64,000 nt of DNA, taken from positions 18,476,001 to 18,540,000 of the forward strand of contig OX485803.1 in assembly GCA_950295325.1 (NCBI GenBank). Direction: 5' to 3'. Position numbers and translations under genes: made by a program. The notes under the pieces are model-generated. The model ran no database searches. It had not been told where the DNA came from and saw only the letters and a list, made by a program, of their open reading frames with translations. Shown piece after piece: positions 191 to 37,200 of this stretch. The stretch's first letter is position 1. Every line of letters starts with the position of its first letter. Origin of the DNA: Polytrichum commune (taxonomy: Eukaryota > Streptophyta > Polytrichopsida > Polytrichales > Polytrichaceae).

Positions 191-430
191 AGTATAACAC
201 TGAGCTAGAATTCAAACCAGGGTCATCTACGTCTTCACTTGAAAATGGATACCAATCTAAGGCCAGTGTGAGGCCTTCCACCAATACATCAAATACTACT
301 GCAATTTCTTCAGACTCAAATTCCCAGCAAAGCACTTCCTTTGGCATGAGGACTACCACAGGCACAAATGCATTTCTGCAAACTTTGTCGTGCAACAAGG
401 GGGCTTCCAGAGATCCTTGAGAAATAGTAC

Positions 431-4483: not shown

Positions 4484-6032
4484 CAGTGTTGAACGGGTAT
4501 GTTGTAAAGTGCATACAGGGGAGGCCTGGTTTTTGAAAATTTCTTGGAAATGTAGAACATCGAGGTATTGATATTACAAAGGTTTTGTATTTTCAAGGTA
4601 GGGTATGTGTATGTGGTCTTGTAAAATTTCTTGAATTTTAGGGTACGTGTTATGGTGTGATTTTTTTTCATATACCAGGGTGCCCAATGCAAGGGTATGG
4701 TATGTCATTTTAAGGTTTTTAAGAGAGAATTTAATTACTTAATAATTTAATTTAAAATAAAATAAAAAAATCCAAAACAGATGAAGCATGAACTTGAGCA
4801 AACTGATCAAATTGAATCATGATTTGAATTTATCAAATTGTCATGCTTGACTAAGTATTGAATCGGATCAACATGGACTACTTCGACCAACATCAGTTTA
4901 ATCAAACAAAGTTGAATTGATAAAAAAACAATCAAACAATGCCCTCAAGCTAAATCTCACTCTAGCTCACCCGCTGCAATCAACTCCTCTTCATGAATTT
5001 CGAGCAACTCTGCTTCATCATTGAAGAATTGAGTGATGTTACTCTCACTAAGTGTATCTGTGCGGGCATCAAAAGGCCAATTCTTTTGAATCATGACAAG
5101 GGCATTGAGATTCTCCATACCAAGTCTACAACGGCGAAGGGATGTGAGAATGCCGGCAATGGAAAAGATCCGCTCACACTCAATTTGACTACCTGGTATG
5201 CCTAGAAACTGTCGAGCAACAAAAACAACAGTTGGGAAACGCGATTCATGTTCCTTCCACCACAATAACGGACAAGCAACATTAATTGGTTCAACAACAA
5301 GACGCCGGAAGAGGCTGAGCTCGCCAAGTAGCAGCCCCTTGCTTGCTTCAGCTGTAGAAGCTGGTGCACCGAACAAAGAAGTTTAGGAGACATGCGGGAC
5401 GATTAGAGCGGCTGGTTGTGCAACAACAGTGGGAGACAAAATTACAACCACTTTGACCAACATGGGTACCAAGACTTTGGTGTCGTACTCATCCACCACC
5501 TTCTTCACCACTTCACGGCCAACATAATCTTGTAGTAACTCCAATCCCTTGAAACGTGGATCGAGCATGAGAGCAAGCATGTTCTGAGTTTGCCCTTCAT
5601 CGTACTTGCGGGAAAAAGCAAGAAAAGGCCTCAACACCGCTGCTACATGTCCTGCCATCCGTCCATAGAGAATTTCGAGCTCTGAGTCAAACTCGCTACA
5701 CTCCAAGGGCGGTTCAATTGAATTGTGTGCAAGCTGTTGCACCTCCATTTGCACCATCAACTTCAACGCCCCTGCTAGAGCATCACTGAGCAACCAGAAC
5801 CCGCGAGTTTGGTTTAGAACGCACTTTGATACCACAGGGGTCAATGTCTCTGTCACAGCTCGAGCAATTGCCCATGTGAGACCTATTGGCACACGAGCTT
5901 GCAATGATGCAGACTGCCGCCTGTAGCAAATATTTATTGCATCTGCATACCTGCACACACACCATTGAATTCAGCTTGCATATACCGGAAAGCAACAATG
6001 TTGGAGCATGTTCCACCACAACATGCAAACAA

Positions 6033-16392: not shown

Positions 16393-18839
16393 CAGTCCAC
16401 CCTCTATAAGTGTTAACAATTGGGAGTGGTAATATTGTTAACACTTATAGAGTGTTAACACTTATAGAAATATAGAGTTTAACAAATCAAAACATAACAC
16501 GTATAAATGTAACACAAGTAAAATATTGTTATAATACCAAATGAAGTTCCAAAATACAATTGAGGAGTCTCACTCCTCCATTTCCACTCCTCTAGGATGG
16601 AAGAAGGCATCTATAGAGGTCTGCTGGAGCTGATTCACATGTAGGTGATCAATCTCTTTCTCAAACTTTTCTAATTTCTTGACCAATTGCATAACATCAG
16701 TAGACCTCTGCTCAAGATAATGACGTAAAGTTTGAAGAGAAGACTGCACATCCTTGTAACACACAGGGGCTTTAGGTTCAGATGCAAGAGTTTCAGTGTC
16801 ATCCTCCTCCTCAACAAAGGAATCTGGGTTGAACATCTCCATCAATTCCTCATTGGATGGTTGGTAAGGATTATTCAAGTCAAATTCAGCTTCGTAGTTG
16901 ATGAATTCCTCTACAGTCATATTAAGTGAGATCTCTGAGCTTGCTTGACATACCACACTAAGCCGTTCCAAAAGTGTGGTGATTTCTTGCACTTCTTTTT
17001 TGTGAACCTCCTGTAATGCTTGATTGGTGGTTAGAATAGATAGTACTCCAGTGTAATTCCAACAATTATGAATGGTCTCAGAACTAACCCCATGTCGCCA
17101 AGAATGAAGAAGCATGACTACTGCTTGATACACATCAAACTCTGGATTCTGAGCAGACATCAAACAATTGATCTTGTGCTCAATCATTCGCTTGCGATAT
17201 TGGGCTTTGAATGAGGCTATTATTCCTGCATCCATGGGCTGAAATCTGCTAGTGGTGTTGGGTGGTAGAAACTCCAATTGAGTGATACGCAACCTTGATC
17301 CTATGGTAGGAGTTTGGTGTCTTGAGAAGTTATCAACAAGAAGCAAAACCTTCTGCTTGCCCAATGCAACCATTCTTGCCTCAAAATCTAGCATAAACCT
17401 TTCAAATAATTTTGTTGTCATCCAAGCCTTCTTGTTGGCTGCCCACAAAATGCCAAGGTTCTGAGGATTCACAATATTTCTTTGAGAGAAGGCTCTAGGC
17501 TTCACAAACTTGTTAATAACAAAAGGAGGCAGCTTAATGCTACCATCAGCATTACTGGTGAATGCAATTGTGAGCCTCTTTTTTTGTTTTTTTCTACCAG
17601 ATAGGCGATGTGTGGCTAGTGTACGGTTTGGCTCTAATCGATAGAACAACCCAGTCTCATCCATATTAAAAAATATCAGAGACTTGGTACCTTGAACATA
17701 TGAGTTTGATATGCTCCATGCGTTGTAAGGCCTCTGGAGAGTTGTCTGCTGAACTTGCTTCTCCATGTCGAGTGTAGCCTTTAATCTTGAACCTCCGCTT
17801 GAAACCCTCCAACCACCCATTAGAAAACTGTAGCTCCTTTTGAGATGGATCCTTCTCGCTCATGTTGTAGAATTTCTTTGCAGCTGCTATCAAAAGATCA
17901 TCTGTTATGGTAGCACCATGTTCCTGCATCAGTGTAAACCAAGAGAATGTAGCATTCTCAACCTGAGGGCAGTAAACATTTCTGACTCTCTTAATAGTTG
18001 GAGGTGCTTCAACGTCTAAGTCCAGCAAATCTTTTCTCTTGAGTAACCTGGAAATGGACATTTCAGATGAAGAGGCTTGGAATTTAGCATTTGCCCACAA
18101 TGTTAGAGCTCTGTTGCTAATACGTTGCCCTGACTCAACGTGACTCTTCCGATACAACAAATTTTTTTTCTTCTGAGCCAAATTGAACTCTGAAGCCTTC
18201 CCCATCTCTACTGTCCTAGATTAAATTGAAAGACATATGCAAACTGACTCTAAATCACAAGGACACAAACCCTATCCACAAAAAATAATACAGCACCCTC
18301 AAAATTAAACAGACAAAACTCGCCGCCGCTGCCGCAAGAGACTTGGAAGGCAGATTTCGGCCAACTATAACTCACTTGTTAGAAGTCGAAATTCGACAAA
18401 ACTACTACCATTGGAATCGTTTCCTCAATAGCTTTCTAATGGCATGTGATTCGCCCTACAAGTCTGAAATTTGAAAACAACATTCTTAGAAATTCGAACG
18501 CTGGTAGACTGGCTCAACCTGCTAGGATAAACTGAGTTGACGAGGGAGGGACTTGCAGTCAATATCCTAAACCCTAATAATTTCTAAATGGGGGGTGTGT
18601 TACAGTATGTTACAGTATATTACATGTGCTATGTTACAATATATTGTATTGTATGGTATTATATAGTATAATAATAATTTAACAGATATAGAGGGCAAAA
18701 TTAGAAAGAGGGGAGTAGCCAATCATTTAACACTTCACACTTAACGTTATTGTAGTCTCCCCAAGTAGGGAGTAGAAAAAATGTTAACACTTATGGAATT
18801 TTAACACTTATAGAGGTAACACTTATAGAGGGTGGACTG
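16393..18839 (-). mobile_element. pogo/Tigger-like DNA transposon, full length
   Basis: Terminal inverted repeats of about 24 bp begin CAGTCCACCCTCTATAAGTG at both ends. TA target duplications flank them at 16391-16392 and 18840-18841. The 2447-bp element holds a minus-strand transposase with CENP-B-like DNA-binding and DDE domains. The motif TTAACACTTATAG, taken from the inner part of the TIR, recurs as direct and inverted copies just inside both ends (16437-16480 and 18783-18835). It looks like an array of transposase-binding sites. CAGT ends with TA duplication are typical of the pogo/Tigger branch of Tc1/mariner. Confidence 0.93.
16570..18205 (-). pseudogene. Tigger-like transposase (CENP-B HTH + DDE), one frameshift
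   Basis: The N-terminal frame (18205 to about 17676) encodes two helix-turn-helix modules; ATITDDLLIAAAKKFYNM and FSNGWLEGFKRRFKIKGY are the CENP-B-type second half. The C-terminal frame (about 17820-16570) encodes the DDE nuclease: FNMDETGLFYRL (first Asp), LLLVDNFSRHQTP (second Asp) and RFQPMDAGIIASFKAQYRKRM (third acidic residue). The two frames overlap. They are connected by one surplus T in a run of six at about 17672-17677, immediately before the first catalytic motif. A run of five would keep one frame of about 540 codons. A homopolymer slip or a sequencing error are both possible. Confidence 0.9.
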
Positions 18840-20439: not shown

Positions 20440-21325
20440 AAGAATAGAAGCACCAAACTTTGGTGCAACTTAGAAGCAATGTTCCTACTCGCAAAGTTGT
20501 CACTTTAGTGGGCATGAGCCAATCTTCTGTAGTATGTACGGGATGAGATTGAGAGACAAAGACGAAGACGTCCAAAGTTTCTTGCAGACGGAGAGGAGGC
20601 GGTGTGTCACTCTTGTTACTCAAGGTCGACTTGGAACTGCATCTGCAACAACAAAACAACTTCAATCTAAAACATGTAAATTGTTGTTTGACATCACTAT
20701 GAGGTGTGTTTTGAGAGAGGTTGGATGGTGTGCACAAGTGCATCAAACGAAGTCGTTTCTGAGTTGTAAACATGTTCTCGCACGCCTGAGGTTTGCTCAA
20801 AGGTATGAGGGTTGTACTATTTTGTAACGAGACAAAGATAAATACATTTAACTCAGATGGTAGGTCATGATGTTAGATTGGAGATGGAGAACGTGTTAGA
20901 CCTCAACATGTTCATGAAACCGTGAAGCATGGTGGTGGGTCGGTGACGATTTGGGGATGCATGACGGCTTTTGGGCCAGAAGCATGTACAAAATTAAAGG
21001 TAAGATGTACAACTTTATTTTAGAAAATTTCTTGTGGTCCACTATACATAATTACAATATGGATCCGAGTAGGTTGGTCATTTAATAGGATAATGATCCC
21101 AAGCACACGAGCAAAATCGTGCCAGAATGGTTGGCATCACAACCATTTCAATACCTTCAATGGCTTGCACAATTTCCGGATTTGAATCCCATTGAACATT
21201 TTTGGGCACTTCTCAAATGACACTTGAACGAATTTAACTCACCTCCAAGAGGTCTCCAAGAATTGTGGGAGCGTGTGTGTGTTCAATGTATCCCAATTTC
21301 AGTGAACATGATTGCATGGTGCTTT
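20440..21325 (+). pseudogene. Tc1-like transposase, main fragment
   Basis: The helix-turn-helix region is visible in frame at 20600-20830 (TQGRLGTASATTKQLQ, VLREVGWCAQV, LARLRFAQRYEG). The DDE domain follows after a frame change: KHGGGSVTIWGCMTAFGP, QDNDPKHTS-like DNDPKHTSKIVPEWL and QFPDLNPIEHFWALLK. The expected first catalytic Asp (SDETK context near 20826) reads Asn. Several in-frame stops (TAA TAG before DNDPKHTS; TGA after FWALLK) and frameshifts make it non-functional. The frame is cut at 21325 by the retroelement. Confidence 0.9.
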
Positions 21326-21660
21326 GTCACGGTATGCGGCGTCAGCGGCCGCACCTTATCCGTTGGGCTTTATCCATTTAGAGTTGGATGGATGAACCTT
21401 AGTTTTGGAAAGTGATGCTCCTAAGTGAGGAGCCTCCTCTTTGACTTGGCATTCTTACCAAGTCAAGTCTTGTGAGTGAGTGTGTGGAGAGAGCTTGTAT
21501 GAGGTATAGATTGCATGTTTTTGCAATAAATATTGAGTTATTCTCCCCTCTCTTGCACTCTTGGATTCTCCCGTGGTGGAGTGAGAGATAGCTTGACTAA
21601 TTGTGTGCATTTGAAGAGAGATTTAGAGCTATTATGAGTGTTCTACTCTCTTCCTTCTCA
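21326..21660 (+). repeat. 5' LTR remnant (segment A1)
   Basis: This matches 31171-31495 from TGTCAC(G/A)GTATGCGGC to CTCTTCCTTCTCA, with small indels. It lacks the first ~106 bp of the full LTR. It contains AATAAA near 21527, a possible polyadenylation signal. It ends in CA and is followed by CTTGGCAAAAATGCC; the TGG two bases in could start a tRNA primer-binding site, but I could not match a specific tRNA. Confidence 0.8.
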
Positions 21661-23514
21661 CTTGGCAAAAATGCCTCATTTTTTATGTTTTTTTCTTCAT
21701 TCTTGATATTTAACGCGCTAGGGAGGGCGTGAAAACAAGAAGCGATGAAGTTCCGGAGTTTTGGAGCGGAGAAAGCCGCAGATTGTTGAAGCAACAAGAA
21801 GAAAGACGTGTATTTGTGAAGTTTAGACATCACTTTGAATTGTGGTGAGAAATCTTGAATTCTCCACGGAATTTAGTGTCATTTGTTCGCTTGCAAGCTT
21901 GAATTCACATTATTGAGCTTATCAACAACACTTTTGATTTTGATTCAAGTGTGATTTCATTCAAAATAATAAACAAAAATAAAAAAGGAAAGAGGAGGCA
22001 GTGGAGCTTCTCTTGGAGCTCTTGGTTTCTCAGCTGCGGTGGCCGTTGGCGGCACGCGGCTCCCCCCTCCTCCTCCAGGTACCTCCCCTCCTGGTACCTT
22101 CCTCTCCCCCCTCACCTTCCTCCCACCTTCCCCCTACGCCTAAGCCCCTTTCCACCTCAGCCTACCCCTCCCCCCCCCACCTAAGCCTACATTTCCCCCC
22201 ACCCCTCTCTGCTGCAGCCTTTTTATTTTTATTTTTTTTGCTCTAAAAATATTTTTAAATTAAACAATAATTAGTTTATTGTGTTTGTTATTGTATTTTT
22301 CAATAAAATAACAATAACAAAAAAAATACAATAAACTAAGGTATCGAGAGGTCAAGAAAAAAGAAAATGACATTCTTGGACTTATGAATAACACACTTCG
22401 GCGCCAAGGTTGAGGGCATCTTTTCGAGTTTCTTGGCGATTCGGTTGTGTATACATTTGATACCAAAATCATTTTGTTGGGAGAGGTGGAACATTGCGGG
22501 AGAGGTTCGCGGGAGCATCCGGCAACACGCGGAGGGCGTGGGAGCACAGCGAATTTGCGGTTAGCTTCATTTTCACCCACAACAACTTGATAGAGGTACT
22601 TGGCATAAGTGGGGATTTTTCATTTCTTGTTGTTTAGAAGTAAAATAAGGGCATTGGAATTTATTTGGGGACGGGTGTAGGATTTATTTTGGGATAGGTT
22701 AATTGGGTTGTTGTTGGGATTTATTTGGGGATATGTTTATTAAATTATTGAGGGAATTGCCGAGGGGTGGGGCAAATTGGCACATGGAATTACCATTCGA
22801 CTTAACAAGATCATTGTTAAGGGCAAATTGTGTTTAGAAACACAAATTCCCGGAACTTCGGGGAGGAGAGGATTTTATGTTGTAGCACTGGATGAACGAT
22901 GTGCCTATGCAATTTTTTTTTTAAGCAACAGGGGCTCTTCATTTTGACCACCAACCGCAGACGGGTGCCGGTTCGTCGCGGTCGCGGTTGCTTTCAATTT
23001 TTGTTTAAGTGTTGTTTTGGGGAAGAGGATCCAGTGCTGTTATTACATTGTTTATTGTATTTTGTTGTGGTACCTTCCCCCGTGGCGGGCTATTGTGTTG
23101 GAGTCTTCCAACATTGCCCCATTTTGTGTTGTCGTAGTTTGTGATAGGATATTGTGAGGGTGAGGTCGGACTAATCACCGACGAGACCCTTGTGTGTCCA
23201 CCAAGTGGGCGGTGCTTGTATTCCCTTATGGTGAGGCTGGATTGATGACCAGCAGACCATAAGATTTGGTGGTGGTTGCAGGTGCAGGTTGCCTTTACCC
23301 TAATACCACATTAGTTTAGGTTCTCGGCTCTAGTGACCAAATCCATTGCGGGTTTATGGTTACAATTCGGAGCCAACATTATCGTTCTCCGTCTCCGGCA
23401 TCATCGCAAGGTCGATCTTCGGACTTTATGGACAGTGAACCCGTGGTAGCACCCGACGAGGTTTTCTAGCCTACTTCGGCGTGGGGGACTGCCACTCGGT
23501 CTCACGTCCTTTGG
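21661..23514 (+). other. retroelement 5' leader
   Basis: About 1.85 kb separates the LTR remnant from gag. The stretch includes a C-rich, repeat-like zone at 22070-22215 and AT-rich zones near 22230-22340. Two matched hairpins lie at 23157-23190 and 23227-23261, and short ORFs show no family resemblance. The hairpins may be RNA packaging or dimerisation signals (inference). Confidence 0.5.
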
Positions 23515-25293
23515 GTGGGATCATTTGACGAGATGGAGGATGGGACACGAGACGGCACCCGGGACCGATTTTCTAGTCGAGCGGGGAGTATTTCCCTGCA
23601 AGATTGGAAAATTTGGTTCAGAACATGGATGAGGAAGAATCGTCAACGCAATACCAACTTCAACGATTGGTATGTGTTCAAGCTTCTGCCACAGCATTTG
23701 GAGCACGAAGCTCTCCATACCTATGAACAATGGAGGGATGCTCATTGGATAGAGTTGCGCCATGTGGATCGGTACTGGGAGACTCGGATTGACTTGGTGT
23801 CCGCATTAAAGGAAGGCCCAACTTCCAGTCTGATGGCCGTTCCTGAGGTTAAGTCAGAGGTACCAGAGGGAGGTTATGTGGTGGATGTGGAGGGAGCTCA
23901 TTCTGGTGAGCCGAGGGCTAAGGATCCTGCTCCCGCCGCGGCGAGTACTTCGAGCCCCATTCTTCCACTGTCACGTTATGCCCAGGCTACCCAGGCGGCA
24001 TTAGCTTCTTTAGGAGCTCCGTCGGATTTTGATCCTCTGCAGGAATTCCAAATCCATTTGGAGGAGGAATATAGAGGCTTCCGCCGCGATCAAATACAAC
24101 ATATCCATGACTTTCGACTGGAAAAAAATGACACACCTCGTACCATGTACCCGAGGTTGGCGAGGTTTTCCAGAGAATCTGGAGGTGTTTTCGTCGAGAG
24201 CGAGTTGGTAAAGGTGTTTTTGTCAAATATTGACAAATGCCTCATTGACTTAGCTTTGCCCAGGATCATCATGGATCATGATGGCCGAGCGACACTTGCG
24301 GAAGCTTTCGCCATTGTTGAGCAGTGTGATCGTGCATTGTGTCAACACAACGCCACTAACTTGGTGTCCATACTAGTGGATTCTAGCAAATTCCGGAAGG
24401 TTCCGGTTGCGGCTGCGGGGTTGGCGGATGCAGAGGTGGAAAATACCTTGCATTGTTGGTTTTGTGGGCAGGCTGGCCATGCTAAAAATGAATGTCCTTT
24501 GAAGCAAAGGAAAGCCCAGACCGTTACTATTTCGAAGCGGAAACCATATGTTCCCGTTAAGGGCTCGGCAAAGGGGGCAGGTAATCAGTTACCCAAATAG
24601 TTGAAGTGTTCCCATTGTGGGCGGAACAATCACGCGGTGGAGAACTGCTTCGCTTTCCATCCAGAAAAATGTTCTTCTTCTGAACGGGAAAAAACGTTGG
24701 AGGCGAAGATTGGTGTCTTAGAGGAGAGGTTCAAAACTTTGGCGTGATCCAACCAAATTTTGGACTCACCCTCTACGTCTGGCACTAAGGCTAGGTCATC
24801 CACATCAGAGTATTTCATGTTCGGAGCTTCAGGACAGGTGGTGAGTTCCGCGGCGGTGACTCGTGCTCAAACTGTGTCATGAGGCACACCTCCGACCACA
24901 GGGGAGTCTGTGGACAACTTACGTGCTCGGGACAATGCTCCCGCGGATCAGATTGGCCAGGTACGTCTGCCATTGCCTTTTGGATTGGCTGATGCTGCCC
25001 AATCTATTAGTGCTCGTCATTCGAGCTTGGAGGCTTCGAATCCAACGACCGATGTGGTGCACACTTTGGCATCCAAAGTGTTGCACACCCCTTTATTCAC
25101 AACGATGGAGTGGTCATCATTTGATGTCCAACCCACTAAGATTTTTCATCTAGCAGGTAGGATTTTGGAGGGCAAGGCATCCCCGCTTCTTTCACTGTGG
25201 CTTGAGCCACTGCGGACCTTCGTACCACGGAAAATTCGGAGGAAGCGGCCAAACGGTGAGCGAGGCTTGCGACTTCATTATAATATCCTCTAA
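23515..25293 (+). pseudogene. retroelement gag with two CCHC zinc knuckles
   Basis: Gag packages the element RNA. An open frame of 361 codons (23515-24600) holds a Ty3/gypsy gag core (LQEFQIHLEEEYRGF, TMYPRLARFSRESGG) and a zinc knuckle CWFCGQAGHAKNEC. The same frame goes on past TAG (24598-24600) to a second knuckle, CSHCGRNNHAVENC, and past TGA at 24745-24747 and 24880-24882 up to 25293. The two TGA stops stand where Arg (CGA) fits and the TAG where Gln (CAG) fits. The true start may be upstream, since the first residues shown begin at a GTG/TTG-type codon. Confidence 0.85.
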
Positions 25294-25558: not shown

Positions 25559-26404
25559 CTCGGGGTAGATGGAATCTTTCCCGGGGCACCGGGCATCTTT
25601 CCCGGGGTACCATGTTTTACAAAGTATGGCCCTTTTGGCATTCCACACAGCTTATCTTTCAGATGTAGCTGCTCGACCTACTCGCGAGCGTCGAGGCATT
25701 CGATCTAGCATTATACGGATGGTGAATGATTCCGGCATTTTGATGGTCGGTCGGACTGGGTCAACCCTATTCGAGTTGCTCCCAGTGTGTGATGATGGAT
25801 TCAGGAGCACAGCCTGTTATGATCGGCAAAAAGCTTGCGATTGACGGCCGACGATTTGGCTCCTTGCCCATTTACCATCGTCACATCTATTGGCCACGTG
25901 GAGCGGGCCACTGGTTATACTCGGGAGCCATTACAACTTAGCTTCCGAGTGAAGCCTATAGATTCACCCGCACCTCTTCTTCTTAGGTGTGCGGTGACGG
26001 ATGCGACCAACTATGACATTTTAGTTGGTCAGCAAGCATTTTACCCTCTTGGTTTTGGGTTGGACAACTGGACTGAGGAGGCTTGGATCCGCCCAGGTTG
26101 GTCGGCTGGAGACGGTCGTAGGGAACTCCTTCCTGTGGCATTTGCAGCGGCCGCTACCATCGCACCATTATCCATGGTTTTTGGATGCAGTACTATGGTG
26201 GATACATTGCCTCATGGATCCGCATTATTGGAGGAGTCATTAGCATTCATGGGAAGTGCTGAAGATCCACATAGATGGCACCTAGGCATTCCTTGGTGCG
26301 ACATCCCAAGGACCCTCCGTGGCGTGATTCCGCCGGCTTATTCCGAAGGTGTGACGACATTATCCTCTTTTTCTCGGTTATACCACACCATTCATACCGG
26401 ATAG
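25559..26404 (+). pseudogene. retropepsin-like aspartic protease
   Basis: MMDSGAQPVMIGKKLAIDG around 25793-25850 contains the DSGA active-site signature of retroviral-type aspartic proteases. A frame change near 25840 leads into 25835-26404, which reads on through VTDATNYDILVGQQAFYPLG (the conserved I-L-V-G strand) and GFGLDNWTEEAWIRPGW. The frame ends in a TAG at 26402-26404. The methyltransferase frame begins in the next frame a few codons before that point, so protease and methyltransferase were probably one polyprotein separated later by a one-base loss. Confidence 0.8.
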
Positions 26405-27659
26405 TCCATCCACGTTGGCACACCCCATTTTATGGCGCCCTCCAGACACTGGGATTACTTTGGTGGAGTTGTTTGGGGGCATCGGCACAGGATTAACGGC
26501 TGTATTGGAGGTTGGCCATACGGTCAAACAGTATGTCTATGTGGACAACTCTCGAGTATCCACCCGTGTGGCTCGTCACCATTTTCACAAGTTGATGGTG
26601 TTGTATGCACAGCAGTTACACCCGACTGCAATTTGTGGATGTTTTTCACGTCTCCCTCGTGATGTCACACTTATCAGTGAGACCGACTTACGACACTTGG
26701 GTCCGGTGGATATGGTGATTGCGGGATGGCCATGCCAGGGCCATTCACGTTCTGGAGCGGGCCAAGGTCTAGAGGATCCCAGGTCCAGTTTATTTTGGGA
26801 CCTCATCCGCCTAATGCAGTGGTGGTTTTCCCACCAACCTTCCCCTCCAACGTATATTTTCGAGAATGTGCATTTTTTGGGAGACTATCGGGACAAGGTG
26901 TTGGAAGGCGATTATTATGTTCGTCAACACCTTGGAGATCCCATTTTTGTGGATGCCGCGAGCATTGGTTCTTATGCCCACCGGCCTCAGTGGATTTGGA
27001 CCAACCTCACACCGTCATCTACTTTAGCTGCAACATTTTCTGCAGTGCCTCCACCTTTAGATCAAAAGGTGGATGACATCTTGGATCCGAACCGAACTTC
27101 TTTGCCGGATGTTCGAGGTGATTTACCCCCGTTGGCATTAGTCAACAAAGTGCGGGCACCACGGCGGGCTTTTTCCACATTTATGACATTTCCACAATCA
27201 TTTGCTTTCCGCGATCGGGGGCGGGGTATGGTGTGGGATGCTCACATCGAAAACCACATGGAACCATTATCTGACGAGCGGGATCGTGCCATTGGATTCC
27301 GTACTGGCACCACCGCAGCTCCCGCCCTTTCTGAGGGTCTACGATACTTCGTGTTGGGCCAAACCATGGATCTTCATACCATGGTGTGGACTGTTGCTTT
27401 ATGCCTTTCATTGCAAAGGCATCGTGGTGAGCAATGGTTGTCTCTGGGGGCAGAGGACTCTGGTCAGGGGGCACATCGGTCCTCACCCATGGAGGAGGGA
27501 ATTCACGCCATGGTTGGACAAGCTGAACAAATTTTTCAATTTGAGCAGCATGTGATGGAGGAGCTTCGAGCTCAACATTTTTACACTACTTCGGTTTCTT
27601 CGCCTCCGGTGGTGGCTTCATCATCACATATTGGTGGTGATGAAGAAATGCCAGACTAG
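26388..27659 (+). CDS. cytosine-5 DNA methyltransferase domain inside the retroelement polyprotein
   Basis: This domain would transfer methyl from S-adenosylmethionine to C5 of cytosine. The uninterrupted frame of 414 codons from 26415 shows the motifs in canonical order: I, LVELFGGIGTGL (residues 16-27; SAM binding); IV, GWPCQGHSRSG with the catalytic Cys107 of PCQ; VI, FENV with Glu150; VIII-like HRPQWIWTNL (189-198); IX-like RAIGFRTGTT; X, LGQTMDLHTMVW (314-325). The order I to X is not the rearranged order of plant DRM enzymes. No BAH, RFTS or chromodomain is present, so it is not MET1 or CMT. It lies between protease and RT, and no start codon near 26388-26415 stands out, which favours polyprotein expression. 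It is one of the best-preserved frames of the element. Confidence 0.9.
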   Translation, partial: PFIPDSPSTLAHPILWRPPDTGITLVELFGGIGTGLTAVLEVGHTVKQYVYVDNSRVSTRVARHHFHKLMVLYAQQLHPTAICGCFSRLPRDVTLISETDLRHLGPVDMVIAGWPCQGHSRSGAGQGLEDPRSSLFWDLIRLMQWWFSHQPSPPTYIFENVHFLGDYRDKVLEGDYYVRQHLGDPIFVDAASIGSYAHRPQWIWTNLTPSSTLAATFSAVPPPLDQKVDDILDPNRTSLPDVRGDLPPLALVNKVRAPRRAFSTFMTFPQSFAFRDRGRGMVWDAHIENHMEPLSDERDRAIGFRTGTTAAPALSEGLRYFVLGQTMDLHTMVWTVALCLSLQRHRGEQWLSLGAEDSGQGAHRSSPMEEGIHAMVGQAEQIFQFEQHVMEELRAQHFYTTSVSSPPVVASSSHIGGDEEMPD

Positions 27660-29264
27660 CACTGAGACTGGGGCCATGATCAATGCCCCCTCCTCTCATT
27701 AGCAATTAGAGTTTGTGCCAGCATCAGTTGGTTCTCCTTTGGTGGAGAGGGAGACTACATAGTTTGATAATTGGCCACTTGAATTATGCCCTCATATCAA
27801 TGGTGCTGAGGCACGTAAGGTACGAGAATTTATTCGCTCGTACTGTAGATGTTTTGCTTTTAGCCTTCAGGATCTTGAAGGTTATAAAAGAAAACCCATC
27901 CACATTCAGTTGGAGGATGGCCATCCCATTCTTCGGAGACCTAATAGGCTTAGTATTTCCGAGCGGACTGGCGATCAGGCTCGTGGCCGAAAGCTCTTGG
28001 CAGCAGGGCTAATCGAACTTTAATTTCCAACGGGGAGTATGCTTGTGCTACGGTTATGCCATCGAAGAAGGATATCTTTGGCAATTGGACGGAGAAGCGG
28101 ATGTGTGGGGCTTACCGTCCATGCCAGTTAATCAGAAGACCAAGTCGGATCGGTATCCCATGCCGATTCTGGAGGAGTTGTTCGATGCCATCGGATTTTC
28201 TCGGGTCTTTAGCACCTTGGACTTGAGATCCGGATATCACCAACTTCCATTACTTACGGGAGATCGGATGAAGACCGCATTTTGGGAAGTTGATCATGAT
28301 AGGAAGGATCAACTATACCATTGGAAGTTTTTTCCATTTGGCCTCAAGAATGCGCCTGCTGAGTTTCAGAGAGTGATGGACCAAGTTCTCTCTGGCTTGC
28401 CTTTCGCTCGGTGTTACATTGATGACGTGATCATTTTCAGCAAAACACCACAGAAGCATTTAAAGCATCTTCAAGCCGTTTTTGAACGATTACGACGGTG
28501 GAGATTGCGCTTGCACCATGGAAGTGCAAGTTTTTCCATGACTGACTCGCATATCTAGGTCATATGATTATTCCAGGAGGTCTTGGGGTGCAACAAGCTA
28601 AGGTGGACGCCTTGCAGAAGATCCCGGCACCGGTCGATGTGCCGAGACTTCGTGTTTTCTTGGGCTTCGCGAATTACTATCGTCGATTCGTCAAAAACTT
28701 TAGCTTAATCGCCAAATCTCTTACCATTCTCACGAGCAAGGACCAACTTTGGACTTGGATCGTGTGCAACAGCAGGTATTTCAGACATTGAAGTATAAAC
28801 TAGGTGCGGCTCCAGTGCTTCGACGTCCGGATGTCTCCAAATCCTTCTAGTTGCATACGGATTGGAGTTCATTGGGTTTGGGAGCAGTTCTCACTCAGAA
28901 GGATGATTTCGGCTGAGAGTATGCTGTTGCTTACGCTTCACGAAACAATAACACGGCGGAGGCTAATTATTCGTCATACGAAGGAAAAACATTGGCGGCG
29001 GTATGGGCTATTGCCCATTTTCGGCCGTATCTTTATGGTCATCACTTTACTTTAGTGACTGACCATCAGCTGTTATGGTGGCTCATGGAGTCGGATAAGC
29101 TTACTGGCAAGCTTGCCATGTGGGCTTTGTTGCTCCAGGACTATGACTTTGAGGTGGTACACCGTGTTGGAATCACCAACATGGATGCAGATGGATTCTC
29201 ACGCAATCTAAGTCCTTCGGATGAGGACTTGACCGGGGCCAGACCTGTGACATGGAGATTGTGA
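27660..29264 (+). pseudogene. Ty3/gypsy reverse transcriptase and RNase H
   Basis: RT copies element RNA into DNA; RNase H removes the RNA strand. Fragments in shifting frames read in order: REFIRSYCRCFAFSLQDLEG (about 27825), RPVNQKTKSDRYPMPILEEL, FSRVFSTLDLRSGYHQ, KTAFWEVDHD, FPFGLKNAPAEFQRVMDQVL, CYIDDVIIFSKT (YxDD catalytic box near 28415), RVFLGFANYYRRFVKNFS, then RNase H: HTDWSSLGLGAVLTQKDD-like, EGKTLAAVWAIAHFRPYLYG, TDHQLLWWLMESDKL and VHRVGITNMDADGFSRN. Multiple stops and frameshifts disrupt it, for example the stops near 28018 and 28557. Confidence 0.9.
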
Positions 29265-29499: not shown

Positions 29500-30780
29500 A
29501 GCAATTTGTTATTTTGATTATGGCCAGATGCGACAAGACGTATTGTTCCTAGGCCGGATCAGAGGGCCTCCTTGGTGCGACAAGTGCACGAGGAACTTGG
29601 CCATTTTGGCATACGCATGACACATTCGATTTTGCGTGGCCAATATTGGTGGACTGGCATGTATCAGCAGGTGGCTGCTTATATCGGGAGGGGTGAAGTT
29701 TGTGACCGGGTTAGGTCTAGCTTTAACAACTTGTCACCTCAGTTACAACCTTTACCTATCATGGGATTGGGCTACCGTTGGTCACTGGACTTTGTAGGGC
29801 CGTTGTTTGTTACATCACGTGGCGCAAAGTACGTGTTAGTGATGGTGGAACATTTTAGCAAGTGGATTGAGCTTGTTGCTCTACCCCAAAACTCTGCAGA
29901 GTTGGCCGCATCCGCCTTTTTGAATCGTGTGTTGGCATGTTTTGGAGCACTAGCTGAGGTGTTGACGGACCAAGGGAAGGAGTTCCTTGGTGCTTTTGAG
30001 GAGTCAGACAACCAAGCGTGGCTTGAGGAAGTATGGATTACTTCAGGGAAGCCACCGGGATTGGGACCTTATGTTACCTTGGATTGTTATGGGCTTTCAA
30101 TTTAGTAGGCAGGCCTCTTTGGCATCCTACAGCTCGTATCAGTTATTATATGGACGTGAGCCTATTCTCCCGAGTTCTATTCGGGAAAAGTTAGCTCCTA
30201 TTGTGGAATTGGATGACCCAAACATTTGGGCAGAATGTTTGTAGAAGCGGGCTTAATTCTTCCAGAGGGCCATGTCTATGGCTATGGAGAATTTGTTCAT
30301 TGCTCAGCACCGTGATACATTGCGTTATGCACGCATTCGCAGTGGTGCTTACCGACCTCAGTTGCGGAAATTCCGGCAAGGGGATTATGTTTATCTCCAA
30401 CGTGAGGTGCCTACGACATTGGATATCAGGGCGGGACGCACTATCCTTCGGGTGAAGGAGGTGTTGCCGAATGTTTTGTTGTTATTGGAAGGCAAGGATG
30501 GCAGAGAATATCGCGAGCATTCCAAAAACTGTACCCCATGTCATCTACCCATTGATAGTACAGTTCTTCCTGAACTGGCCGTCGTGCCAGAGGGTCTTCC
30601 ATGTTTTGTGTGTGGAAAGAAGAAATTACCGGCTACTGTGCTCTTGTGTAATCAGTGTCAATGTGGTTGGCACATGGCATGCTTGAGGCCACCCTTGACT
30701 TCTCTACCATCTGGACAGTGGAGTTGTCCTTGTTGTCGAGGATCTTCGGTACTTGGTGCTCCCACCAATCGTACTTAATG
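29500..30780 (+). pseudogene. Ty3/gypsy integrase with C-terminal PHD finger
   Basis: The integrase N-terminal zinc region (RQVHEELGHFGIRMTHSIL, later CDR) and core (YRWSLDFVGPLF first Asp; LTDQGKEFLGAF second Asp) are visible in 29572-30000. The frame then jumps to KRGLRKYGLLQGSHRDWDLM, so the segment expected to hold the catalytic Glu is missing. After LLYGREPILPSSIREKL and two stops near 30241, 30272-30778 carries the integrase C-terminal fold (RKFRQGDYVYLQREVP). It ends in a PHD finger: CFVC (201-type pair), CNQC, GWHMAC and CPCC, a full C4-H-C3 ligand set. A chromodomain, usual for chromoviruses, is not seen here. Confidence 0.88.
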
Positions 30781-31062
30781 ATCATGTGTGGTTTTCATCA
30801 TCTTGTGCCTAACAAAATTGAAGATGAGGAATTATGGCTTACAAACGCAATCGATATGAGGCGGTAAAATTAATTCTGTGGAATCTGATGGCCAACTATC
30901 AGAGGCGATTAAGGATAGGGCTCACATTGCACCCAACCTACAGTTCTTTGGGATGACGTTCGCTACATTAGTTAGTTGCGGAACAATCCTTCATTATCCA
31001 TACCCTTGGATTGATTTCGTCCTAGCTGCTTAGCGGGACTCCATAGTTAGCTAAGGGGGGCA
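30781..31062 (+). other. retroelement 3' untranslated region and polypurine tract
   Basis: This is non-coding sequence after pol. It ends with the purine run AAGGGGGG at 31053-31060, followed by CA and then the LTR beginning TGTCGAAATG. A polypurine tract directly before the 3' LTR is what plus-strand priming requires. Confidence 0.75.
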
Positions 31063-31495
31063 TGTCGAAATGTGTTGTTCATGTGTGACCTTGCTATGTT
31101 TTAGTGTTGTTTGTTAGTGATGGTTGGTACTTGAGCTGCAGTGACACACGATCGGTATTTACACGACAGTTGTCACAGTATGCGGCATCGGCGGCCGCAC
31201 CTTATCCGTTGGGCTTCATCCATTTAGAGTTGGATGGATGAACCTTAGTTTTGGAAAGTTAAGAGCCTCCTCCTTGGCTTGGCATTCTTACCAAGTCAAG
31301 TCTTGTGAGTGAGTGTGTGGAGAGAGCTTGTGTGAGGTGTAGATTGCATGTTTTCGCAAGAAACCTTGAGTTCTTCTCCCCTCTCTTGTACTTTTGGATT
31401 CTTCCGTGGTGGAGTGAGAGATAGCTTGACTAATTGTGTGCATTTGAAGAGAGAGATTTAGAACTATTATGAGTGTTCTACTCTCTTCCTTCTCA
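31063..31495 (+). repeat. full LTR (B1 + A2), TG...CA
   Basis: The 433-bp LTR starts TGTCGAAATGTG after the polypurine tract and ends CTTCCTTCTCA. Its first 106 bp (B1, to ACGACA at 31168) recur alone at 37027-37131. The remainder (A2, from TGTCAC at 31171) recurs alone at 21326-21660. The B/A join contains GACA-GT-TGTC, a small palindrome. Confidence 0.8.
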
Positions 31496-31496
31496 C

Positions 31497-32265
31497 CTAG
31501 CACCTAAGGCATGCAAGGCCTGCGACATAGCTGCCACTGACACATTAATCTGATTGTAAGATAAAATATGACTATCATTACTGCAGGTTAGAGTCACACC
31601 CAAAGGGACCCTCAACATCTCCACCAACTCAGCCCTAAAGCTATCTCTCTCCTTGCGATCCCTCTCAGCAAACACCTTCACGACAATCGGATCAGATATA
31701 ACATTTAGCCAATCGCTAAACTCGGCTAGATCCCTTATCTTCACTCGATGATTGGCAGGGCGAACCATGATCCCAAATAAATCAAGCAAATCAAGAATTA
31801 GCATGCAAAAACAAGCTGCATCCACATCCATTCGCCTAGGATCATTAAGCTCAGTGTCATGCGACAAAGCCTCAGAGCACCCCACAAGAGGAGCAAATCG
31901 TGGTAAGGTACCTGCCCTAGGCATCGCCAAAGGGGTACGAGGAAAACACGACGGAGACTAGGGTCCTCCTCACTATCTACACCTCTAGGTCTCTCTACAG
32001 GTGGCGGCAAAGGCACGTCTTCTCCCACTAGCATCTCATCCTGTAAAGGGGGCACATGTAACTCCTCCTCCACCTCATCTTCTAGAGGTGGCATAGCCAA
32101 CTCCTCCACCTCCTCTTCTAAAGGAGGCATGGGAGGCTCCTCCTCTAGCAATTCCTCATCAGAGGCGCTCAAATCAATCACCTCAACCTCAAATCGATCC
32201 CCTAACCCTAGGGCATCAAAAGCCCTCCAATGCACATCCGGGATGGGAAATTGAAAATCTATGGA
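31497..32265 (-). pseudogene. unknown acidic/proline-rich protein fragment cut off by the LTR
   Basis: On the minus strand a frame from about 32265 (PIPDVHWRAFDALGLGDRF) to about 31900 contains repeated acidic-proline units of the type PPLEEEVEELAMPPLEDEV. A one-step frame change near 31930 leads to a second frame (FAERDRKERDSFRAELVEML) that runs straight into the LTR and stops there at 31493. I do not recognise the family. The reading frame is older than the join to the LTR, so segment X contains pre-existing sequence rather than element-specific DNA. Confidence 0.5.
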
Positions 32266-32384
32266 AAGTAAATGTCTGAATTATCTCACAAGGCCAACTG
32301 GAATGCTGCAAAACCAATACATAATAATTTAAAACAGTTTTCCAGCTTCCTAAAATACCCAGCCACATTCAACAGCCCATAACT

Positions 32385-34610
32385 TTCTCTGTACAACTCT
32401 GATTGCCAAATGGAAAGATGCATTGGATGCGTCTTTCAAAGGCGCATCCAATGATATAGGACACTCAAACATTGATGAAAATTTGAGGAAGATATTCTAG
32501 AAAGAAGCATTCTAGGTTTAAGCCCAGAATGCTTCTTTCTAGCATAACTTTCTGTCTGTAACTCTGATTGCCAAATAGAAAGATGCATTGGATGCGTCTT
32601 TGAAAGACACATCCAATGATATATGACACTCCAACAATGATAAAGATTGGAGGAAGATATGCTACAAAAAAACATTCTGGGTTCAAGCCCAGAATGCTTC
32701 TTTTTATCATAACTTCTTCTCATCAACTCTGATTAAAGAGAGTCGGCCCATGGCCCATGGCCCAGAGTGTTTCTTTCTATCATGATTATTTATTATAAAC
32801 TCACATTCACAAAACGAAAATGGCATTGGATGCGCATTTGAAATGCGCTTCCAATGCATATATAACTCTCTAACATTGATCGACAATTGACAAAATTATG
32901 ATAAAAAGAAGCATTCTGGGTTTTGGCCCAGAATGCTTCAATCTATCATAACTTTTTGTCATCAACCCTGATTGAAGAGAAACATGATGCATTGAATGCG
33001 CCTTTCAAAGACGCATCCAATGCATATATAGCTTGCGAACATTGCTCAAAAATTGACAAAGTTATGATAGGGAAAAGCAATCTGGGCCATGGGCAGAAAC
33101 CCTCTTTCTATCATAACATTTTACCATCAACTCGGATTGCAAAAAGGAAAATTGCGTTAGATGCGCCTTGTAAAGACGCATCCAATGCTAACCTAGATAA
33201 ACAATTGACCGAGTTATGTTAATAAGAAGCAATCTGGGCCATGGCCAGAACCTCGGATTGCAAAACGGAAAATTCTTTTTATCATAACATATTATCATCA
33301 ACTCGGATTGCAAAACGGAAAATTGGGTTGGATGCGCCTTGCAAAGACCCATCCAAGGTATGTGTGACTTGCTAACATTGATCACAAATTGACCAAGTTA
33401 TGATAGTAAGAAGCAATCTGGGCCATGGCCAGAATGATTCTTTCTATCATAAGATTTTATCATCAATTCGGATTGCAAACCAAAAATTGGGTTGGATGCG
33501 CCTTCAAAAGACGCATCCGATGCATGTATAACTTGCTAACATTCATAAAACATTGACCAAGTTATGATAGGAAAAAGCAATCTGGGCCATGGTCAGATTG
33601 ATTCTTTCTATCATAACATTTTAACATCAACTCGGATTGCAAAAAAAAAATTACGTTGGATGCGCCTTGCAGAGACGCATTCAATGCATGTTTAACTTGC
33701 TAACATTGATCAACAATTGACCAAATTATGATAGGAAGAAGCAATCTAAGCCATGGCCCAGAATGATTCTTTTTCTAACATATCTTTTCGTCATCAATTC
33801 TGATTGAAGAAAGGAAAACTGAATTGGATGCGCTTCAATGCATGTATCACTTGCTAACATTGATAAAGATTTGACAAAGATATGTTAGAAAGAAGCATTC
33901 TGGGTTTTGGCCCAGATTGCTTCTTTCTAGCATATCTTTTTGTCATCAACTCCGATTGAAAAAAAAAATATTGCATTAGATGCGCCTTACAAAGACGCAT
34001 CCAGTAAATATATAACATGCTTACATTGATAAACAATTGATCAAGTTATGCTAGAAATAAGCATTGTGGGTTTTGGCCCAGAATGCTTCTTTCGGTCATG
34101 TCTTTCACATACCAACTTCAAAAAATCAATATAAAATATTAAACGAAGCGCATTGAAAATGCGTTCCTAAAGAGCTATAGATCAAACATAATTGATTGCA
34201 TATGAGAAAGTTATTGAGGTTTGAAGCTTGCTGGGTTTAGACCCAGCAAGCTTCAAACCTCAATTTCTTTCTCATATGACGTATTTACAAAAAAAGTAAA
34301 GATATCCTTAGAAGCGCATAGGAAAGGCGCTCGTAATGAGCCAAATATCATAGCAAATGGAGACAATATGAGAGAGAAAATGCATTTTGAAGCTTGCTGG
34401 GCCGAAACCCAGCAAGTTCAAACCTTAATCACGTTCTGATATTACGTACCCACAAACAATTAAAGATATCCCCAGAAGTGCCTTGAAAAGGTGCTCCCAA
34501 TGAACCAAATACCATAGCAGCTGGATACAATGTGAGAGAGAAAATACATTTTGAAGCTTGCTGGGCCTAAACCCAGCAAGCTTCAAAGCTTATAAGTTTT
34601 TTTTTCCTTA
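32385..34610. repeat. tandem satellite of ~160-bp monomers, each with two hairpins
   Basis: About ten to thirteen diverged monomers follow each other. Each carries one palindrome of the type GGATGCG(Y)CTTT/AAAG(R)CGCATCC and one of the type AAGCATTCTGGG/CCCAGAATGCTT, separated by CTAACATTGAT..ATTGACAAAGTTATGATAG. From about 34090 a second monomer type appears with stems GAAGCGCATT/AATGCGTTC and GCTTGCTGGG/CCCAGCAAGC. There is no credible ORF. It lies in segment X of the insertion. Confidence 0.85.
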
Positions 34611-36972
34611 ATAACAATAGAAATTGTTAAAGTAAGGATTAGAAACTTACCTTAATCACTTGGAAGATTTTGAGAATGAATAACACATTGGACTACTATT
34701 CATTATATACCCGCATTAAAGAGCTTTATAATAAGTTGAGATTGAGGTTAATTCGAGTTATGTAATAGTTAAGATTTCTATTCCTTATCCAAATGACTCA
34801 ACCTTAACTCGAAACATGTAGGAGTTAAAAGCTTACTTTTCTACAAAGACCTTTTGTGCATTCCTCACTCAACCTCAACTAGTGTTAAAACTAAAGATAT
34901 CTTTTGAACTTAGTTCGAAGTAAACCTTCACTCATACTATCTAAGACTTAACACCTTTCTTATTTACAAAGACTTCTTATCTATACATTAGCCTAATTAG
35001 CAAGCTAATGGTAGTTTTAGATAAGTAATGCTATCGTGTTGGAATTGGTAGCAGCGTTAAGAGCCTAACCCATAGTGCAACCTAATACTATTATTTAACC
35101 CTTAATCACATAATAAACATCTTAATTTATGTGTTATTATCCTAATTCTGATATATTTAAATTAATTATAGCGTTTTTAAACAAATTCTACGCATAAGTT
35201 GTATCATATGCTTAAATACAACTTAAATAATTAATCTTAATCTTAAGCACATAATTAGCACCTTCATTGTTGCCTTATTAGTCTAATTTATAATATTCAA
35301 ACTAATTATTGCATTATTAACTAACCCCTAGCCAACCACATACCATAACAACATTAATGACTTAAAATATTAATTTTAATCTTAAGCGCATGATTAGCAC
35401 CTTCATGGTTGCCTTATTAGCCTAATTTATAAAATGTAAACTAACTATTGCATTATAAATCCTTGCCTAACACATATCATAACTACATTAAAACCTTAAA
35501 TGATTACTTTTAATTTTAAAGGCATACTGAATCATTTAATTCTGAATTATTACACTAATGTTATTAATTTAGTTAAATTGTTTTTCTATGCTTAACCTTA
35601 AACTTAAACCATAGGAATCTCGATTAATAACTTAAATGTTTCTTTTTTAATTTAAGTCATATATTGAATACCCTTAATGTTGGGTTATTCACTTAATGAT
35701 ATTCAAGTTTAGCTCATTAATGCGTAATTAGTCTTACTTATTATAGGCTAAGTTGTATTCTAGGTTTAGTTAACAGTTCAAAGGATTAATTTTTATCCTA
35801 GGTTAAATTTAATCCTTTATTAATAAGGTAAACTAGCTTAAATCTACCATATTAAGTATATTAAATTATCCCTATATTATCATCTAATTTTGGATTAAAT
35901 TAATTAAAAGTATACATATTAATATATTATGCATATAACGGATTTAAAAATATAACTATAATAATTATTAGAATATTTAAGATAATAAATGTTATTCTTA
36001 TTATTATCATCATCATCTAGGTAATAATCATTAATGATAATAATAATCATTATTAAGCTAATAATCAATATCATAATAGTTATTTAAATAATAGTTATAA
36101 TTAAATATTTCATATTCAGCTTATTATTATTATGTTCGGCATAATAGAGACATGTTATTATTATTATTATTATTATCTAGCTAATAATTAATATTCTAAT
36201 TATTACTATAATACTAGGCATAATATTTTAATATTTTAATATTATCAGCTTAGTTTTCATACTCGAATGCAGTACAAAAACAAAAAGTCAACTCCAAAAG
36301 TCAACCTTATAGTCAACGCAATAGTCAAACTATAAAAGTAGTGAACTTCTTCTTAATTTCCAATAACCAGTTAAAAACAGATGAAAAAATGTCGTTTTTC
36401 ATCCATTCATAATGTTTTCCCACAAGGTCCTATGAGCAAGTCCCATACCATTCCGGAATGCCCTAACCTTGTTGTACAACGTGGTATGGGCCTAATTTCC
36501 AAAAAAATCATTATCCAAAAAATCAACTCTAAGAGCCCCAAAAGTCAACACCCCCTATATCTCACAAATGGCGATAGCCATTAATGAGGTTTTTACTCCA
36601 TTGCGTTCACAACCCTTGAAAATGGGAGGGTACGTACCCTCGGATCCCCAAAATACCTTCACCTCGCAAAAGTAGCCCTCAAAATTTGTCTTTTTAAAAG
36701 GCCATAACTTCTACATTTTAGCTTCGTTCAAAAAACCGAAGGCATCATTGGCTTTGTAATATCCGCAAATAAGGGGTACGTCTTCACCGATTTCCGAGAC
36801 GCCTAAAAATAACTAAAGTAAACTCGTCCAGTAAAAGTCAACCATGTCATATGTAGCAAATGGTGATACTTATTAGAATGGTTTCTTCACTATTGGGTGG
36901 GCCATGACCTATAAAGAGGTCCTAGCCAAAAAAATCCAAAAAAGTATGGCCAAAATTTGGGAACACCCATGT
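34611..36972. other. AT-rich part of segment X
   Basis: 34620-36280 is very AT-rich with many TTAAT, ATTATTATT and TAAGCTTAA-like runs. It shows diffuse internal duplication, e.g. CTTAATCTTAAGCACATAATTAGCACCTTCAT at 35230 and 35370. 36280-36970 has several AGTCAAC motifs. I see no gene. Confidence 0.5.
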
Positions 36973-37026
36973 AACCCTAAAACCCTAAAACCCTAACCCT
37001 AACCCTAAACCCCTAAACCCTAACCC
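36973..37026. repeat. telomere-like repeats at the LTR junction
   Basis: About seven to eight units of the plant-type telomere motif (CCCTAAA with CCCTAA variants) run without a gap up to 37026. They directly abut the LTR fragment that starts GTCGAGATG at 37027. Confidence 0.85.
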
Positions 37027-37131
37027 GTCGAGATGTGTTGTTCATGTGTGACCTTGCTATGTTTTAGTGTTGTTTGTTAGTGGTGGTTGGTACTCGAGCT
37101 GCAGTGACACACGATCGGTATTTACACGACA
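37027..37131 (+). repeat. LTR 5' fragment (B2), right end of the insertion
   Basis: This matches 31065-31168 nearly base for base (GTCGARATGTGTTGTTC to TTTACACGACA) but lacks the first TG. It ends exactly where Tc1-like sequence resumes. Confidence 0.88.
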
Positions 37132-37132
37132 A

Positions 37133-37200
37133 CTTTATGAGAGCATGCCATGAAGAATTGACGTTGTGTTGAAGAGTAGGGGTTACTAGACCATTTACTA
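37133..37200 (+). pseudogene. Tc1-like transposase, C-terminal fragment
   Basis: Immediately after the retroelement the plus strand reads LYESMP, a TGA, then RIDVVLKSRG. This is the C-terminal end expected of Tc1-like transposases (LxxSMPRR...KxxGG). It completes the protein that is cut at 21325. The TGA stands where Arg is expected. Confidence 0.8.

Follow-up and report, generated by a model that had tools for sequence, protein, structure and literature searches.

Retroelements with a DNA methyltransferase (DNMT) of their own are already known, and they include a gypsy-type element with DIRS-like repeats. DNMTs are described in LINE and DIRS elements of Symbiodinium and in a gypsy element of Klebsormidium (PMC5890265), in line with the sequence-only reading of the DNA analysed here, which had named dinoflagellates and charophyte algae as sources of such elements. 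According to the same description, the Symbiodinium DIRS enzymes gave CG methylation in yeast, and the methyltransferase (MT) of the Klebsormidium element gave none, DNMT3B having failed there too. The latter element, KnitGypsy-Dnmt3 of Klebsormidium nitens, is the closest known system to the family reported here, likened to it by description and not by sequence. The two have in common gypsy domains and an intronless, unpermuted Dnmt3-type MT, as well as the purifying selection and the DIRS-like repeats that PMC5890265 describes for KnitGypsy-Dnmt3. Our family accordingly falls within the group of gypsy elements with a Dnmt3 domain and DIRS-like repeats, a group known by description. The MT of KnitGypsy-Dnmt3 is described inside the Pol ORF, whereas in our family it ends a Gag-protease-MT ORF in front of a leaky UAG. 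Relative to that description, our family adds target-site duplications, a palindromic repeat junction, solo repeats, a shorter repeat form and a PHD finger. SymbioDIRS-Dnmt3 of Symbiodinium likewise has a Dnmt3, repeats in the order A-coding-B-A-B and two coexisting domain orders, but is described with a tyrosine recombinase (PMC5890265), where our family has a DDE integrase and 4-bp duplications. Another acquired nucleic-acid-modifying domain, in this case of a different enzyme, an m6A demethylase, is described in orchid Ty3/gypsy elements (PMC9289625).

A 2025 paper mentions DNMT3 in streptophyte retrotransposons (PMC12344493); that mention aside, the open-access literature searched names no DNMT-bearing gypsy element in land plants. 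As far as our searches go, it is new to find such a family in many copies, some of them very recent, in a streptophyte that has DRM and is likely a bryophyte; new too are where the leaky UAG stands, the presence of a PHD finger, and element ends with target-site duplications and a palindrome. Retrotransposons rank among the chief targets of DNA methylation in plants, and an element supplying its own de novo MT inverts the usual conflict. Such an element may label its DNA itself, with the mark by which plants keep retroelements silent. From K. nitens it was uncertain whether elements of this kind are rare and what their DIRS-like repeats mean. Here there are many copies in two subfamilies, relatives in bryophytes and Volvox, a repeat geometry that points to circles and a host with its own DRM. 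Both what element-borne DNMTs do and whether integration passes through circles can now be tested directly in a plant.

The methyltransferase and its element

Coordinates refer to the window, the whole stretch of 64,000 nucleotides that was analysed; features of the element lie on its + strand. The C5 cytosine MT is encoded by an ORF at 26355..27659, with the catalytic domain at about 26454-27422. It is an unpermuted, DNMT3-type cytosine-5 methyltransferase inside an old, frame-broken Ty3/gypsy element. In the structure comparison, residues 19-344 match DNMT3B 571-849 collinearly, and DNMT3 is the nearest relative by both sequence and fold. Structural neighbours among the 50 matches listed are DNMT3 chains, M.HhaI, 4dkj and EhMeth; none of the 48 chains matched at E 0.001 carries the name DNMT2, and a further search gave none either. 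DRM methyltransferases have a rearranged motif order, with motifs VI-X before I-IV, and this order is absent from the window MT, which is collinear with DNMT3B. A search for the ADD domain, meant to recognise a DNMT3 host gene, gave no match, and neither did its control; among the viral contigs searched, no relative was found. The complete-looking C5 methyltransferase that the sequence-only reading had placed in a retroelement is confirmed, and its proposal that the enzyme belongs to the element, as a former part of the polyprotein with the protease, is borne out by open copies that read Gag-PR-MT (PR, protease) in one frame. That reading had not noted the split repeats, the leaky UAG or the PHD finger.

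The left end of the element is repeat A1 (21325..21667), which starts with TGTCAC and is preceded by the target-site duplication GCTT (21321..21324), identical at 3/4 positions to its partner ACTT (37132..37135). The A repeat proper ends in CTTCTC at 21659 and is followed by a sequence resembling a primer-binding site (PBS), ACTTGGCA. The gag ORF (23470..24600) contains a CCHC zinc knuckle (zf-CCHC E 0.0039, below the Pfam cut-off), and its DNA is 80-89% identical in other copies. Between gag and protease lies an AT-rich stretch of ~250 bases, as judged by eye. The aspartic protease (25798..26404; DSGA motif at about 25798-25809) has a broken frame in the window copy; the Pfam search of this fragment gave no match, and the protease of relative P0041 matched Asp_protease_2 with E 5.5e-4, also below the cut-off. 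Downstream of the MT come the ORF1 stop TAG CAA TTA (27700..27708) in a UAG-CARYYA leaky context, the reverse transcriptase (RT; 27763..28558), again with a broken frame, the RNase H region (RH; 28559..29264; RT_RNaseH 1.9e-23 in 28917-29261), and the integrase (IN; 29518..30105) with an H2C2 zinc domain and a DDE core. About 80 nt of the core region are missing from the window integrase, to which other copies match in two stretches ~80 nt apart. C-terminal to the integrase is a PHD finger (30602..30736; PF00628 1.9e-7), present in many relatives. A polypurine-tract-like AAGGGGGG (31053..31060) precedes repeat B1 (31063..31168), which a spacer (31169..31170; the junction reads GACAGTTGTC) separates from repeat A2 (31171..31502, A proper to 31494). 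Repeat B2 (37027..37131) ends with ACACGACA and forms the right end of the element, followed by the target-site duplication at 37132..37135.

Judged by its sequence, the window copy is an old, inactivated member of a multicopy gypsy-type family with a DNMT3-type MT. Its protease and MT frames are shifted against each other, the tail of the MT is shifted relative to that of relatives, and RT, RH and IN are spread over several frames. The two A repeats differ at 17/322 sites and the two B repeats at 4/106, 18 of these 21 differences being transitions.

A 5.5-kb insert, X (31503..37026, no strand assigned), lies between A2 and B2 and consists of a 165-bp satellite and subtelomere-like DNA ending in CCCTAA repeats. 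We rejected it as an integral part of the element since A2 and B2 are adjacent in the 12 other copies of the same architecture. Within X, positions 32369-34600 hold a degenerate satellite, repeated in tandem every 165 bases or so. The subtelomere-like DNA at 36276-37026, which ends in CCCTAA-type repeats and abuts B2 inside the A2/B2 junction, matches sequences near the ends of contigs C1, C3 and C7, at the starts of C2 and C6, and at a few contig-internal places. Directly after A2, positions 31495-31502 read ACCTAGCA, which resembles the PBS-side sequence after A1 and not B2; it may have been left by reverse transcription that ran past the primer site.

Copy number, reading frames and selection

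A search of the genome (407.8 Mb, 64 contigs) with the MT gave 99 scored matches, window included, among 631 candidates, the other 98 being 67-86% identical to the window MT. The Pfam DNA_methylase profile scored 123 places among 353 candidates, 70 of them absent from the MT-match list. Of the 70, one proved to be an exon of a host DRM (DRM2 E 1.9e-34), leaving up to 69 further MT places; among five other new loci inspected, four carry a second MT subfamily and one (L039) did not match the motif used, and of a sixth (L050/51) the flanks were read. The genome thus holds two MT subfamilies. The sequence-only reading had asked whether further copies carry the domain, and they do not lack it; taken over the copies, the MT is evidently a conserved domain of the element family. 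The land-plant case that it had envisaged is likely in view of the host DRM exon, given that DRM is described as restricted to streptophytes (PMC12344493). A bryophyte host is suggested by the relatives found and by the seven large contigs of the assembly.

Five copies chosen for their long open frames, and 10 sampled systematically, were read in detail. Two copies, L011/12 and L015/16, show 0 differences between their two A repeats and between their two B repeats (333-334 + 106 bases), which indicates very recent insertion, and the repeats of L035/36 differ by a single gap. The five open copies (L009-L016, L035-L036) have a dS of 0.15-0.18 in gag and MT, 0.05 in RT/RH and 0.02 in IN. The higher dS of gag and MT than of RT and IN in the same copies suggests that these copies are mosaic, perhaps through template switching.

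In open relatives, Gag-PR-MT is read in one frame and is followed by UAG-CAA-UUA and then by RT-RH-IN-PHD. ORF1 (Gag-PR-MT) measures 1360-1372 codons from stop to stop in four open copies and in the fifth, L035, is open up to the edge of its stretch; the MT is intronless and in frame with PR in all five. A single stop separates ORF1 from RT-RH-IN-PHD, which continues in the frame of ORF1 in L009, L011 and L015; L013 has an indel just before the stop. ORF2 has 1048 codons in L036 and crosses the border of two stretches in the other open copies. TAG-CAA-TTA was found in 10/10 systematic copies and also in L015, L041 and the window (27700), and it lies in frame between MT and RT in L009, L011, L015 and L041. 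The stop context is CAT-TAG-CAA-TTA, with CAA-TAG-CAA-TTA in L034. UAG_CAR_YYA is described as a consensus for efficient readthrough (PMC3542737), and the ORF1 stop fits the UAG-CARYYA definition of a tobamovirus-type leaky stop by its sequence. In database relatives (e.g. P0007, P0009-P0013) the MT protein ends at the corresponding place, which supports conservation of a stop after the MT. We infer readthrough at the ORF1 UAG, where ribosomes would mostly stop and so would make Gag-PR-MT in excess over the RT-IN products. Such an excess would not be universal, because in another clade the MT lies between RNase H and integrase.

Selection on the MT was estimated from 20 copies, leaving out L001 (the window), L004 (= L019) and, because their lengths differed, L023 and L029. 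The pairwise dN/dS of the MT is 0.295 over these 20 copies and 0.291 over the 12 copies without stops, 8/20 copies having stops in the MT. Catalytic residues are kept almost throughout (PCQ Pro 20/20, PCQ Cys 19/20, ENV Glu 19/20). In the five open copies, dN/dS is 0.20 for MT, 0.14 for gag, 0.05 for RT, 0.08 for RH and 0.23 for IN, with higher values for PR (0.61), the MT tail (0.87) and the PHD finger (1.2, on very few changes). Since the differences include neutral decay after insertion, the active lineage would have ratios no higher than these. The pattern is that of an MT under purifying selection.

Split repeats and relatives

Besides the window, 12 copies have split direct repeats in the order A-ORFs-B-A-B with A2 next to B2, namely 5/5 of the picked and 7/10 of the systematic copies. 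A further 2/10 systematic copies and one copy of the second subfamily read A-ORFs-B, and 1/10 has no detectable A or B. Some repeats are shortened: B2 is truncated in L019, A2 is shortened in L023 and A1 in L033. Exact A/B junctions occur 57 times in the genome, against 0 for the reversed control, and 28/57 sit 2.5-15 kb downstream of a listed MT. Six sites were fetched from the 29 far from any listed MT; five are solo A-B copies, the expected product of recombination between A1 and A2, and the remaining site belongs to the end of a full copy. Of 20 copies with both ends, all start with TGTC and 19 end with GACA (AACA in L057). Target duplications of 4 bp are exact in 14/20, comprising 9/12 full copies (window included; 9/11 without it), 3/3 A-ORFs-B copies, L027/28 and L031/32 among them, and 2/5 solo A-B copies; the remaining 6/20, among them the window, match at 3/4 bases. 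The B/A junction is a perfect 10-base palindrome, GACAGCTGTC, in 11/12 copies besides the window, and L033/34 shares the junction sequence of the window. A purine tract precedes B1, B starts with TG, and the PBS-like sequence follows A1.

DIRS retrotransposons have a tyrosine recombinase and are not known to make a target duplication. The family has the A-coding-B-A-B repeats typical of DIRS elements, but with a DDE integrase and 4-bp duplications. Gag, aspartic protease, RT, RNase H and DDE integrase stand in gypsy order, and identical LTRs at both outer ends, as in Ty3/gypsy elements, are replaced by A-ORFs-B-A-B in 12 copies besides the window and by A-ORFs-B in three. The family is gypsy-like by its enzymes, not by its repeats. 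B1/B2 and the other copies speak against reading the repeats at 21324 and 31170 as LTRs.

A profile search found 125 proteins. Among the 120 listed are those of Sphagnum troendelagicum (37%) and Calypogeia fissa (42%), in each of which a protease motif can be seen by eye ahead of the MT. The integrase-PHD search gave 191 matches, the 120 listed among which show 44-90% identity in a homologous RT-RH-IN-PHD and come from green-lineage gypsy elements of Volvox reticuliferus, Marchantia polymorpha and unnamed contigs. Some of these carry a DNMT domain in the same protein, and the Marchantia polymorpha relative is a remnant with MT, IN and PHD. The order RT-RH-MT-IN-PHD was seen in 11/15 examined relatives having both RT and MT; MT-RT-RH-IN-PHD is found in the window family, with the MT in a separate ORF, and in the other four, of which two showed no PHD. 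Trees built from 18 sequences for MT and for IN share three well-supported groups of the RT-RH-MT-IN-PHD order. The split of the two orders has support of 99/97 in the MT tree and 66/47 in the IN tree; in the MT tree two sequences sit on long branches, and relations within the MT-RT-RH-IN-PHD order are without resolution. This points to long joint inheritance of MT and IN with one rearrangement, and stops short of proving a single capture. In P0169 of Volvox reticuliferus, an MT-like stretch (phmmer 8e-13) without PCQ by eye lies upstream of the integrase-PHD and looks like a decayed or repurposed green-algal methyltransferase.

A possible circular route and the role of the methyltransferase

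We think it rather probable that this multicopy gypsy family with its DNMT3-type MT integrates from circular cDNA; the MT may methylate its cDNA before integration. Reverse transcription from the PBS and the polypurine tract would give linear cDNA with B+A as the LTR; its predicted end is inexact, because A2 stops three bases short of the TGG of the putative PBS. Joining of the linear ends (A to B, the sequence found at A2/B2) would make 2-LTR circles, and 1-LTR circles could form as an alternative. The integrase would assemble on the palindrome GACA-GC-TGTC at B/A, cut after CA on both strands and insert the linear product, so that 2-LTR circles would yield A-ORFs-B-A-B and 1-LTR circles A-ORFs-B; the latter copies may also come from B1-B2 recombination after insertion. 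Circularised cDNA with an LTR of B+A, opened at the palindrome, is the simplest reading of the repeats, and from it we infer that the integrase opens circular cDNA at B/A. HIV-1 and foamy-virus integrases are described as cutting the palindromic junction of 2-LTR circles (PMC1905944, PMC1180852); our proposal likewise has a DDE integrase cut internally at a palindrome. The retroviral palindrome is formed by joined LTR ends, whereas that of the window family is internal to the B+A unit and, in the copies assessed, corresponds to the outer ends. That the whole repeat structure was a conventional gypsy LTR element with its B+A LTR rearranged in the window alone would suit the polypurine-like tract before B1 and the TG at the start of B; it is very improbable, already disfavoured by the 12 other copies with A1 left and B-A-B right, the exact outside duplications and the five solo copies.

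For the MT, methylation of cDNA before integration is tentatively the most likely function. It would suit an MT that is produced together with Gag, and cDNA that passes through a circular form. Delivered with Gag, the MT would methylate double-stranded linear or circular cDNA de novo, which might shield or disguise extrachromosomal DNA, or hold the expression of new copies low and so make them tolerable to the host; at the target, histone H3 is presumably recognised by the PHD finger. Observed/expected CpG is 0.72-0.78 in the element, 0.44 in the rest of the window and 0.48-0.75 in the left flanks of five other copies. The element therefore has no sign of heavy CG-methylation decay, and this absence of strong depletion counts against cDNA methylation. 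The PHD finger, found behind the integrase in most of 120 listed relatives, and the adjacency of MT and integrase in the second domain order would also fit an enzyme acting on host chromatin, methylating target or neighbouring DNA through integrase and PHD finger and thereby steering or silencing insertions; with the MT of the window family encoded with Gag-PR before the UAG, apart from the integrase, we regard this as unlikely. Less likely still is methylation of RNA (genomic RNA or primer tRNA) instead of DNA, given a sequence and fold nearest to DNMT3 and the lack of DNMT2-named chains noted above, even though DNMT2/DNMT6-type enzymes are described as associated with RNA (PMC12344493) and the K. 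nitens MT as giving no DNA methylation in yeast (PMC5890265). A passenger, captured once and kept through polyprotein fusion alone, is about as improbable: the stops in 8/20 copies would agree with it, but an MT dN/dS of 0.20-0.30, the kept catalytic residues and the groups shared by MT and integrase trees across two domain orders, which suggest long co-inheritance, oppose it. That a host methyltransferase gene was inserted recently into the element is rejected: we found no point in its favour, and it is practically refuted by the 99 matches, the intronless MT in frame with PR and a host DRM exon of a different, rearranged type.

Returning to methylation of cDNA, we offer a wider and more speculative proposal. 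A long-lived green-plant gypsy lineage may have given up the linear LTR route, with a DDE integrase that opens circles at a built-in palindrome and a Gag-carried MT that marks the exposed circular DNA; this might be why DNMTs recur in split-repeat elements (SymbioDIRS, KnitGypsy and the window family) despite unrelated integration enzymes.

Elsewhere in the window, on the - strand, positions 16570-17859 encode a DDE_1 transposase (Pfam E 8.1e-40), which we take to be of pogo/Tigger type. The C-terminal part of a hAT transposase lies at 4957-5382 (-; Dimer_Tnp_hAT E 6.4e-15), and further open frames up to 8246 look, by eye, to be related. A mitochondrial carrier exon (E 8.2e-14) was found at 316-930 (-).
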